Positions 11,963-13,748 of a stretch of 52,941 nt of DNA are shown here, piece after piece. Origin of the DNA: an uncultured Oscillibacter sp. (GTDB lineage: Bacteria; Bacillota; Clostridia; Oscillospirales; Oscillospiraceae). Numbering within the stretch: the first letter of the stretch is position 1; every line of letters starts with the position of its first letter. The stretch is from NCBI GenBank assembly GCA_945868085.1, contig CAMBKF010000013.1, positions 1-52,941 of the forward strand. The letters are read 5' to 3'. The notes under the pieces were generated by a model. The model was not told the DNA's origin, searched no databases, and saw only the letters and a program-made list of their open reading frames with translations. The position numbers were made by a program, and so were the translations under genes.

Positions 11963-12943
11963 TTACTCGGCGGACTGGGCGGTGTAATCAGCGGGAACGG
12001 TGATGCCCAGCTTCTCGCAGTTGGCCATGTTGGCCTGCTTGGTCACATTGGGAGCAAATTCCACAGGCATGGTGGAGATGTCAGCCTCGCCGGAGAGGAT
12101 CTTGGCAGCCATCTGGCCGGTGATCTTGCCCAGCTCGTAGTAGTCAATGGAGAGGGTGGCCACGCCGCAGCCTCTGCAGATGCCGGCCTCGCCCGCGATG
12201 ACGGGGGTGTTGGAGGCCAGGACCACGTTGGCAATGGCTTCGGTGTTGGAAGCGGCGGTGTTATCGGTGGGGATGAAGATCACATCGGACTCATCGCAGG
12301 CCTTCTGAGTGACGGAGGAAACGTCGTTGCTGTCGGTGAAGGCGAACTCGGTGCAGGTGATGCCGGCGTCGGTGAGGATCTTGGACACCTCATCTACCTG
12401 GTATTTGCTGTTGGCCTCGCTGGAGCAGAACAGCATGCCTACCTTCTTGGCATCGGGGAACAGCTCCTGGAGCATGGCGGCCTGCTTGTCCAGAGGAGCC
12501 AGGTCGGAGGTGCCGGAGATGTTGCCGCCCACGGTGCCGTTCCAGTCAGAGATCTCCAGAGCGGTGGCGTAATCAGTGACGGAGGTGCCCAGGATGGGAA
12601 TGGTGCTGGTGGCGGAGGCAGCGGCCTGCAGAGCGGGCGTTGCGTTGGCCATGATCAGATCCACATTCTCGGACACAAAGCCGTTTACGATGGTGCCGCA
12701 GGTGTTGGCGTCGCCGGAGGCGTTCTTCACTTCCACCTCTACCTTATCGCCCAGGGCATCCTTCAGCGCGTCGGTAAAGCCTTTGGTAGCGGCGTCCAGG
12801 GCCTCGTGCTGCACCAGCTGCACAACGCCCACCTTGAGGGTCTTGGTTTCGGAATCTTTGCCGGTGTTGGTATCCTTGCTGCCGCAGGCCACCATGGTCA
12901 GGGCCATGGCCAGGGCAAGGATCAGTGCCATCAACTTTTTCAT
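11963..12943 (-). CDS. ABC transporter substrate-binding lipoprotein (ABC_sub_bind, TrpX-like)
   Basis: A 326-residue lipoprotein with signal peptide MKKLMALILALAMALTMVAC; Cys20 is the lipidation site. The mature part begins KTLKVGVVQLVQHEALD and shows IMANATPALQAAASAT, ILGTSVTDY and VGMLFCSSEANS, the ABC_sub_bind (TrpX) pattern. Such proteins bind small molecules outside the cell, tryptophan being the best-supported example. The upstream leader peptide is rich in Phe and Tyr and has no Trp, so another aromatic ligand is possible here. It is the first structural gene, behind the terminator at 12989-13024. Confidence 0.9.
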   Translation of the reverse strand: MKKLMALILALAMALTMVACGSKDTNTGKDSETKTLKVGVVQLVQHEALDAATKGFTDALKDALGDKVEVEVKNASGDANTCGTIVNGFVSENVDLIMANATPALQAAASATSTIPILGTSVTDYATALEISDWNGTVGGNISGTSDLAPLDKQAAMLQELFPDAKKVGMLFCSSEANSKYQVDEVSKILTDAGITCTEFAFTDSNDVSSVTQKACDESDVIFIPTDNTAASNTEAIANVVLASNTPVIAGEAGICRGCGVATLSIDYYELGKITGQMAAKILSGEADISTMPVEFAPNVTKQANMANCEKLGITVPADYTAQSAE

Positions 12944-12988
12944 GATTTGTTCTCCTTTGCATTTTTTGATGTGTTGGTTGGATGTTAT

Positions 12989-13024
12989 AAAAAGAGGCCG
13001 CTCTGTCCGGGAACAGAGCGGCCT
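12989..13024 (-). terminator. leader terminator ahead of the importer genes
   Basis: 12-bp stem AGGCCGCTCTGT (12995-13006) with its complement (13013-13024), loop of six; on the minus strand a run of T follows. It lies between the leader peptide stop and the binding-protein gene, where an attenuator would be. It also reads as a terminator-like stem on the plus strand. Confidence 0.85.
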
Positions 13025-13055
13025 TTTCTTAACGAATTGAGAAAGGAACGAAACT

Positions 13056-13181
13056 CTATTGATAAACGGACGGCTTTATGCATTTGTCGCAGCAAAAATA
13101 ACCCGCATAAAAGCGAGCCATAAAGCCGTAATAGAAGCCCCGACGGGAGAGAATGGAATTGGAACGGATAGCGGTACGCAT
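13056..13181 (-). CDS. 41-residue aromatic-rich leader peptide (putative attenuator)
   Basis: A short ORF with a strong ribosome site (AAAGGAG, 8 bases before ATG) about 45 bases after a consensus promoter. Its middle contains GFYYGFMARFYAGYF: four Phe and four Tyr within 14 residues, then a CC-D-K-C end. An 11-bp perfect inverted repeat (13119-13129 with 13070-13080) folds the coding RNA so that the 5' arm covers the codons Y-G-F-M. A terminator follows 30 bases after the stop. The layout is that of a classical attenuation leader sensing charged tRNA-Phe or tRNA-Tyr. A second reading is a small cysteine-containing protein. I did not find a convincing antiterminator by hand. Confidence 0.7.
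   Translation of the reverse strand: MRTAIRSNSILSRRGFYYGFMARFYAGYFCCDKCIKPSVYQ
13070..13129 (-). promoter_or_regulatory. hairpin within the leader-peptide message
   Basis: ACGGCTTTATG (minus strand, 13129-13119) pairs perfectly with CATAAAGCCGT (13080-13070). A ribosome stalled on the Phe/Tyr codons would sit on the 5' arm and free the 3' arm, which ends about 11 bases before the leader stop codon. Confidence 0.6.
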
Positions 13182-13229
13182 TGTGGGGCTCCTTTCTGCC
13201 GTCGGGCGGCGATTTCTTTTGATGCACCT

Positions 13230-13258
13230 ACTATAGAACTTTAAACCTTTAAAGTCAA
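13230..13258 (-). promoter_or_regulatory. promoter of the leader-importer operon
   Basis: Minus strand TTGACT (13258-13253), exactly 17 bases, TATAGT (13235-13230). Confidence 0.8.
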
Positions 13259-13351
13259 CAGTGAAAATGCACAAAAACCAGGTCGATTTTTAGATATTTT
13301 TATACTCGCGAGGATTTTTTCTTAAAGCAAGGGGACAAAATGCGAAAATGA

Positions 13352-13380
13352 ATGGGCTTATTCCCAAAGGAAAAGCCCAT
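13352..13380 (-). terminator. probable terminator of the ModE-like gene
   Basis: ATGGGCTT (13352-13359) pairs with AAGCCCAT (13373-13380) around a 13-base loop; the T-tract after it on the minus strand is short (TCATTTTCG). Confidence 0.55.
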
Positions 13381-13385
13381 AATTT

Positions 13386-13748
13386 TTATTCTGCGGTATC
13401 GGACCCGCTGCCAAAGAGCTCCGCATACTGCTGCGCGCCGTAGGCCTGCATCCGGCGGCACAGCTCGTCATACCGCTCCAGCAGATCTTCGCCCTCCGGC
13501 GTGAGCACGGCCCCGCCGCCGCCCTTTCCCCCGGTGGAGGAGTGGAGAAGCTTGAAGCCCAGCTGCTCCTCGGCGGTGCGCAGCACCGTCCAGGCCTTGG
13601 AATAGGCCATGTTCATGGACTGGGCTGCCGCACGCAGGGAATGATACTCCCGGACCCGGTGCAGAAGCTGCGCGATCCCCGGCCCAAATACCTTGTTATC
13701 CGCCGCGTAAAAACGGACGGTCATTTTGAAAATCATGTTATCACTCAT
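13386..13748 (-). CDS. ModE-like winged-helix regulator (DNA-binding domain only)
   Basis: A 120-residue protein matching the N-terminal domain of ModE: GPGIAQLLHRVREYHSLRAAAQSMNMAYSKAWTVLRTAEEQLGFKLLHSSTGGKGGGGAVLTPEG. ModE controls molybdate genes, but this form lacks the C-terminal molybdate-binding (TOBE) domains; such short forms occur beside molybdenum-related genes in Clostridia. The yqeB/yqeC genes 10 kb away make a molybdenum link plausible but unproven. The start is ambiguous: AAAGGT sits too near the first ATG (13748) and far from the second (13736). Divergent from pckA. Confidence 0.8.
   Translation of the reverse strand: MSDNMIFKMTVRFYAADNKVFGPGIAQLLHRVREYHSLRAAAQSMNMAYSKAWTVLRTAEEQLGFKLLHSSTGGKGGGGAVLTPEGEDLLERYDELCRRMQAYGAQQYAELFGSGSDTAE

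Follow-up and report, generated by a model that had tools for sequence, protein, structure and literature searches.

A probable ribosome-mediated attenuator with a Phe/Tyr leader peptide ahead of a putative tyrosine importer operon in an uncultured Oscillibacter sp.

Organization of the leader and the importer operon

The window analysed here is the whole 52,941-nucleotide stretch of DNA from an uncultured Oscillibacter sp. (contig CAMBKF010000013.1 of assembly GCA_945868085.1). On its minus strand a promoter, a Shine-Dalgarno (SD) sequence, a short leader ORF, an intrinsic terminator and an ABC importer operon follow one another in that order. The features of the locus are as follows.

13258-13230, minus: sigma-70-type promoter TTGACT-17-TATAGT, 10/12 consensus matches
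13253-13240, minus: operator-like palindrome TTTA-N6-TAAA, overlapping the -35 element and spacer
13194-13189, minus: SD sequence AAGGAG of the leader ORF, also seen in relatives
13181-13056, minus: leader peptide ORF, 41 codons plus stop, MRTAIRSNSILSRRGFYYGFMARFYAGYFCCDKCIKPSVYQ
13136-13095, minus: control codons F16-F29, 8 Phe/Tyr codons in 14
13129-13070, minus: predicted 11-bp hairpin with arms ACGGCUUUAUG (13129-13119) and CAUAAAGCCGU (13080-13070)
13118-13101, minus: coding hairpin GCUCGC-UUUUAU-GCGGGU (A22-R23 / F24-Y25 loop / A26-G27), at the tip of a long stem
13060-13040, minus: predicted antiterminator 5' strand AAUAGAGUUUCGUUCCUUUCU, running across the stop codon
13029-13012, minus: predicted antiterminator 3' strand AGAAAAGGCCGCUCUGUU, its last 13 nt being the terminator 5' arm (13024-13012)
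13024-12987, minus: intrinsic terminator with arms 13024-13012 and 13007-12995 and tail CUUUUUAU (12994-12987), 13 pairs, -24.2 kcal/mol
12943-11963, minus: substrate-binding lipoprotein, PF04392, CD0873-like
11874-10954, minus: ABC importer permease, PF02653
10961-10167, minus: ABC importer ATPase, PF00005

These include all of the elements that a preliminary description of the region had claimed, namely a consensus promoter, a strong ribosome site, a 41-codon ORF with eight Phe/Tyr codons in 14, an 11-bp hairpin ahead of the terminator, an intrinsic terminator between ORF and importer, and importer genes 3' of it. As in known attenuators, an ORF with its own start codon and SD sequence lies 5' of the operon, and it is predicted to be translated. 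Just 5' of the SD sequence, CCCGACGG (13206-13199, minus) can pair with CCGUCGGG (13146-13139, minus) early in the ORF, which would enclose the SD sequence in a hairpin and offers a possible control of leader translation.

The promoter match on its own proves little because the shuffled region yields 0.9 sites of equal quality on average. It is the sole promoter-like site that a sigma-70-type scan detected in 12700-13500; a scan with the sigma-70 pattern over the upstream regions of relatives gave no consistent alignment. The intrinsic terminator thus lies between the ORF and the first gene with no sigma-70-type site between them, as in an attenuator, and 43 nt separate its tail from the importer start codon.

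The leader RNA (13225-12980) is predicted to fold at -78.9 kcal/mol, compared to -59.5 ± 4.5 kcal/mol for shuffled sequences (z = -4.35). Its 11-bp hairpin, possibly extended by pairing of 13137-13130 with 13060-13053, is a probable pause hairpin. We rejected it as an antiterminator because the terminator arm takes no part in it; in nascent folds it does not exclude the antiterminator described below. A T-box at the leader was likewise rejected, as the window contains no RF00230 match at gathering score. The Rfam scan of the window returned four tRNAs only, with no family at gathering score over the leader, and the same scan at the leader of 13 other leader-bearing loci gave no gathering-score match.

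The importer resembles a tyrosine transporter

The operon had been described as TrpXYZ-type. Against the model of the tryptophan importer TrpX (NF041285), the binding protein scores 250.4 bits, below the curated cut-off of 390, and its closest solved relative is CD0873 (6hni). As reported in PMC6816091, CD0873 of C. difficile binds tyrosine; Glu263 holds the hydroxyl, and Tyr279 keeps Trp out. Glu252 and Tyr268 of the window protein align with these two residues, so that the tyrosine-specific pair is kept and binding of tyrosine is predicted. Among 93 scored proteins of the clade, the position that contacts the tyrosine hydroxyl is Glu in 92 and Asp in one and the ring position is Tyr in all, while the hydroxyl position is Ala in 5/5 scored Trp-type paralogues (fragment L119 and paralogue L122 were left out of the scoring). 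By alignment, then, the protein appears to have a CD0873-type pocket, with Glu at the hydroxyl and Tyr at the ring.

A separate line of evidence came from the T-boxes of related genes, whose specifier position was read by eye in the Rfam alignment. Four Erysipelotrichaceae orthologues (62-64% identity) have T-boxes with a UAC (Tyr) specifier. The specifier is UGG (Trp) in a paralogue from the same genome as the window (L002, T-box at L002:1130-1383, G000:C22) and in three of its kin. Because the pocket residues match CD0873 and the orthologues' T-boxes read Tyr, the substrate of the importer is best taken to be tyrosine (or Tyr/Phe). The TrpXYZ label therefore gives way to a CD0873-like tyrosine type; the earlier suggestion that phenylalanine or tyrosine is carried finds support for tyrosine in these predictions.

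Aromatic leaders recur upstream of related importers

We searched 90 related loci, those with at least 250 nt upstream (shorter ones were left out), for an ORF at the same position with an ATG start, an SD sequence matching at least 5/6 of AGGAGG, and at least 5 Phe/Tyr codons in 14. Such leaders were present at 41 of the 90 loci. By the same criteria none was obtained in 2,700 dinucleotide shuffles (30 per locus), on the reverse strand, or in the six Trp-type paralogues (Rfam detects a T-box at four of these). Conservation of the ORF had been named beforehand as a check on the leader; the aromatic codons persist at these 41 loci and the rest of the peptide changes.

Among the 49 loci below threshold, L038 and L040 have weaker leaders, L029, L049, L051 and L080 have aromatic ORFs that fail the start, SD or density criteria, and four Erysipelotrichaceae loci have a T-box immediately before the gene. 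The gene start could not be located at L063, L088, L103 and L119, so these four allow no judgement about a leader. Neither an aromatic leader nor a T-box was found at the Spirochaetales and Lachnospiraceae loci of this group, the Rfam scan having covered 42 of the 47 loci without an ORF of at least 4 Phe/Tyr codons (left out were L049, L051, L057, L100 and L119).

A second sample was taken at the level of the family, in which 186 of 400 genomes had the binding protein (E up to 1e-90). After removal of 8 regions without an assigned start and 4 with an implausible one from a total of 84, leaders were found in 26 of the 72 upstream regions that remained usable; two of the 26, L197 and L201, are doubtful in that they resemble chance ORFs. 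A hairpin and T-tract below -9 kcal/mol accompanied 25 of the 26. In all, we recovered 57 distinct leader peptides with an SD limit of 4/6 and with L174, L197 and L201 removed by hand; one of the 57, L082, is doubtful and also resembles a chance ORF. The locus samples partly repeat genomes (e.g. L027 and L107).

The leaders diverge widely: MNFFFAPEYRYYYYYCSEK, ...SHRYYYYYYAFLRPKDV and ...QLFFGIFGFWFTPFPI have little in common except their aromatic codons. Peptide identity among close relatives is 83 and 65%, and among three leaders of the window type Phe and Tyr exchange at aligned aromatic positions. As in an attenuator, the cluster of aromatic codons is retained while the peptide changes, the substrate being assigned by homology, and judged by these alignments the conservation of the leader ORF lies in its control codons more than in its protein product. 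Some leaders (e.g. L043 and L085) have only Phe and no Tyr in the dense window, and their binding proteins still have the tyrosine Glu; codon type and substrate are therefore not strictly matched. The Phe-only leaders suggest that phenylalanine is sensed and perhaps carried as well.

Within the genus, a profile search located the leader in 7 of 32 genomes at E < 1e-10, in every case directly 5' of the binding-protein gene (weaker matches had E values of 0.2-0.7, and our statements cover E < 1e-10). G001 and G010 have different aromatic leaders at the same place, MKFAASANLYFGYSYFYFYFAKVKAICDAQQRKSA and MSAAIRSTCHTAPGVSYFSFSRACNYFAGLFVLN, respectively. The importer occurs without a recognised leader in four genus genomes, G018, G017, G004 and G030; in G003 it is a fragment.

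A predicted antiterminator that would depend on the position of the ribosome

The preliminary description had reported no clear antiterminator. One is found where 13060-13040 pairs with 13029-13012, that is, AAUAGAGU-UUC-GUU-CC-UUUCU with AGAAA-A-GGC-C-GCUCUGUU. Folding with and without a ribosome footprint had been proposed as a check, and we folded the RNA from a ribosome stalled in the Phe/Tyr codons up to the terminator loop. For a ribosome at the stop codon the footprint was set at 12 nt past the first base of the A-site codon. In the window, the predicted occupancy of upstream pairing by the terminator arm was 0.83 in the stalled state as compared to 0.06 with the ribosome at the stop codon. 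Only 2/100 shuffles reached this stalled occupancy and 0/100 reached the difference between the two states.

Similar results were obtained with 39 distinct leaders. The terminator 5' arm was paired upstream at 0.72 in the stalled state and 0.25 at stop, compared to 0.53 and 0.31 in their shuffles (Wilcoxon about 1e-11, the lineages not being independent). The contrast between states partly favours the stalled one, more RNA being free, and shuffles were used for this reason. Stalled occupancy exceeded that at stop in 38 of the 39 leaders, the exception being L116 (0.51 each), and was individually unusual in 9/39.

By energy the window antiterminator is weak, at -8.8 kcal/mol versus -24.2 for the terminator, and it is ordinary when set against shuffles (z = -0.61, 22% as low); antiterminator energy was individually unusual at 14/39 loci. 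We dropped energy alone as proof in the window, where it is not significant and where occupancy against shuffles is more informative.

Comparison of 20 rumen relatives gave 94.2% of antiterminator cells paired versus 28-44% when the structure was slid along the alignment, the structure having been derived from one of the counted sequences, which biases the comparison toward it over the slid versions. Four antiterminator pairs had both sides changed versus 1.1 in shuffles. For the terminator, 97.4% of cells were paired in the same relatives, and both-side changes showed no excess (1 versus 1.0 shuffled). The predicted folds and this covariation together argue for an antiterminator that excludes the terminator and depends on ribosome position, one that in the window is weak by energy.

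In naked nascent RNA of the window the antiterminator forms equally, at 0.83. From these folds, what the switch turns on therefore seems to be a ribosome halted at the stop codon more than a trp-type 1:2 stem. In the full-length minimum free energy structure of the window, AAUAGAG pairs with the control codons instead.

A covarying hairpin within the coding sequence

In the window, the coding hairpin at 13118-13101 caps the 11-bp stem. A stem of this kind recurs in relatives, where Ala-Arg and Ala-Gly codons (or variants) surround 1-3 loop codons. We selected 28 distinct hairpins by amino-acid motif (A-G after a loop containing Phe or Tyr), and six standard pairs were present in 23 of them and five in the other 5. 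MAFFT alignment misplaced the loops of these short hairpins, and base pairs were instead tallied hairpin by hairpin; for each we took the loop length (1-3 codons) that maximized pairing, a mild bias toward pairing that leaves the link between Arg/Cys and Ala codons unaffected. This link was complete: the Ala codon was GCG with Arg CGC/CGT in 24/24 hairpins and GCA with Cys TGC in 4/4, the latter from four genera. The synonymous Ala change in the Cys-type hairpins restores the base pair, which suggests that the RNA, and not the peptide, is what is conserved. Covariation of the stem had been suggested as a further check, and in relatives both the antiterminator and the coding hairpin covary. Genome-wide, the hairpin pattern was counted six times, against four in a reverse-read control, the window copy being the sole one known as a leader. 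The coding hairpin may serve in pausing.

These observations bear on the possibility that the leader acts through its peptide. TnaC is a nascent-chain arrest peptide, and a peptide of that kind would use its own sequence to sense tyrosine or phenylalanine in free form, instead of reading tRNA charging through its codons. The recurrence of a core A-R-x-A-G-Y/F and the high identity among close relatives are in keeping with such a peptide; however, across lineages the leaders have little in common but Phe/Tyr, and the hairpin formed by their RNA accounts for the A-R..A-G core, since where Cys replaces Arg a synonymous Ala codon restores the pairing. We consider arrest highly improbable and favour control codons that the ribosome reads by tRNA charging.

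A putative operator overlaps the promoter

The palindrome TTTA-N6-TAAA within the promoter resembles the HisR/YerC (TrpR family) consensus given in the accessible portion of PMC9413887. A perfect 8/8 palindrome was present in 35 of 172 importer upstream regions, compared to 2.7 expected from single-base shuffles, and some of these regions have no leader. We detected a TrpR-family gene in 30 of the 32 genomes of the genus; G012, G016 and G023 have it about 4 kb past the binding-protein gene on one contig. Palindrome and TrpR-family gene together suggest a repressor in addition to the attenuator. Adjoining the importer promoter is a gene with a ModE-like DNA-binding domain (13748-13386, minus; under the NCBIfam cut-off), and the same arrangement occurs in G002 and G021.

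An operator at this place could also mean that ORF and terminator together make up a small gene in its own right, for a small protein or an sRNA, with the importer controlled separately and chiefly by the TrpR-family operator. The overlap of palindrome and promoter and the near ubiquity of the TrpR-family gene in the genus would fit this reading. Against it, the terminator tail lies so close to the importer start (43 nt), with no other sigma-70-type site in 12700-13500, that importer transcription must cross the terminator unless it uses another type of promoter. A conserved peptide away from importers, which the preliminary description had named as pointing to a small protein, was not seen in the genus at E < 1e-10. 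Operator and attenuator can moreover act jointly, as they do in E. coli trp. An independent gene is thus highly improbable, and the attenuator, perhaps combined with a repressor, remains our preferred reading.

Rumen loci between L034 and L089 (e.g. L045 and L072) have a GC hairpin, GCGCAG...CUGCGC, with U-rich Phe codons immediately after it; it scores as a terminator and is perhaps a pause site. That aromatic richness is simply a by-product of such U-rich pause or terminator tails being read as Phe codons, as the scoring of this hairpin might imply, is scarcely credible, since the UAU/UAC Tyr runs (RYYYYYC, HRYYYYYYAF) are no U-tracts and dinucleotide shuffles never produced such ORFs.

A model for control by phenylalanine and tyrosine

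The elements of the leader, their recurrence in relatives, the alternative pairings and the covariation in relatives are all evident in the sequence, and they support the ribosome-mediated attenuation proposed in the preliminary description. The locus is very probably a transcription attenuator of the ribosome-mediated type, in which the charging state of tRNA-Phe and tRNA-Tyr governs expression of an aromatic ABC importer (most probably for tyrosine and perhaps for phenylalanine). From these data we infer the ribosome stalling, footprint, hairpin pausing, read-through and substrate that the model involves.

Transcripts would begin from the 13258-13230 promoter, with ribosomes translating the leader ORF in the wake of the polymerase. 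If Phe and Tyr are plentiful, the ribosome would reach the stop codon, and its footprint would cover the antiterminator 5' strand, which spans the UAG. The terminator would then form and the importer genes would not be transcribed. When either Phe or Tyr is short, the ribosome would stall in codons 16-29 and leave this strand free; the strand would pair with the emerging terminator 5' arm, and the polymerase would read through into the importer.

The gene content of the hosts is consistent with a dual input. Neither PheA (dehydratase, PF00800) nor TyrA (prephenate dehydrogenase, PF02153) was found in the genome of the window, which is 84.5% complete, or in five leader-bearing relatives that are at least 95% complete (G002, G012, G016, G023 and G028). 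Across the nine leader-bearing genomes of the genus, PheA was present in 0/9 and TyrA was above cut-off in 1/9 (G010), with a sub-cut-off match in G001. Among genomes that have the importer without a leader, G018 and G004 have both enzymes and G030 and G017 have neither above cut-off; genomes without the importer can also be without PheA and TyrA (e.g. G022 and G006). From this gene content, the host seems to need both Phe and Tyr from outside, and a cell obliged to import both would have a reason to sense both.

Relation to known systems

RNA-level sensing of amino acids in Firmicutes is usually attributed to T-boxes, and the amino-acid leader attenuators pheL, trpL and hisL are proteobacterial. 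The window shares with these attenuators a short SD-led ORF rich in codons for the regulated amino acid, an antiterminator opposed to a terminator, and an intrinsic terminator ahead of the first gene. It differs from them in its mixture of Phe and Tyr codons, its ABC importer target and its Clostridia hosts; in addition, its antiterminator strand crosses the stop codon and some of its control codons lie in the loop of a covarying coding hairpin.

Leader attenuators with His codons have been proposed by comparison in Firmicutes, in the B. cereus group, Peptostreptococcaceae and Erysipelotrichales (PMC9413887). They resemble the present case as comparison-based examples of leader-peptide attenuation in Firmicutes; in contrast, they have His codons and his genes, and the consulted portion of that paper does not mention this importer. 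The uORFC-13-1 motif, from Acholeplasma and environmental sequences only, lies upstream of aroF and has at least one Phe codon (PMC8632094). Like the window, it combines Phe codon(s) in an upstream ORF with a following intrinsic terminator and an aromatic theme, but it precedes a biosynthetic gene and the excerpt of PMC8632094 describes no Tyr run. In S. suis, as the available text of PMC9382623 reports, TrpXYZ is controlled by a Trp-specific (UGG) T-box. The protein family of the importer and attenuation that reads tRNA charging are the same in both cases; however, a T-box reads tRNA directly without translation, and the window is without one.

Among the matches listed in a search of the open-licence PMC literature (subscription journals being outside its scope), no attenuator with Tyr codons and no leader-peptide case for this importer was found. 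The principle of attenuation is classical, and the version with Tyr codons and an importer is apparently unreported. The nearest cases in the open literature searched are the His leaders and the aroF uORF; what is apparently new here is the mixed Phe/Tyr specificity and the covarying coding hairpin within ribosome-mediated attenuation.

A broader proposal, which we regard as evenly balanced, is that these leaders form a widespread and previously undescribed class of dual-input attenuators in Oscillospiraceae and their neighbours. A shortage of either tRNA-Phe or tRNA-Tyr would open the importer, as suits cells that make neither amino acid; the control codons would lie partly in the loop of the covarying coding hairpin, and the device would stand in for the Tyr T-box of Erysipelotrichaceae. 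Orthologous importers are preceded by a Tyr T-box in one lineage and by a Phe/Tyr leader peptide in others; a single gene can therefore serve for studying how one device for sensing tRNA replaces another. The 'Trp' importer of gut and rumen bacteria is re-annotated as a probable tyrosine or Tyr/Phe importer. The Spirochaetales orthologues at L039, L050, L053, L057 and L067 had no aromatic leader, and Rfam gave no match in the four that were scanned (L039, L050, L053 and L067; L057 was outside the scan); a short hairpin with a U-rich tail, lying no more than about 90 nt 5' of the binding-protein gene, is common to these loci.
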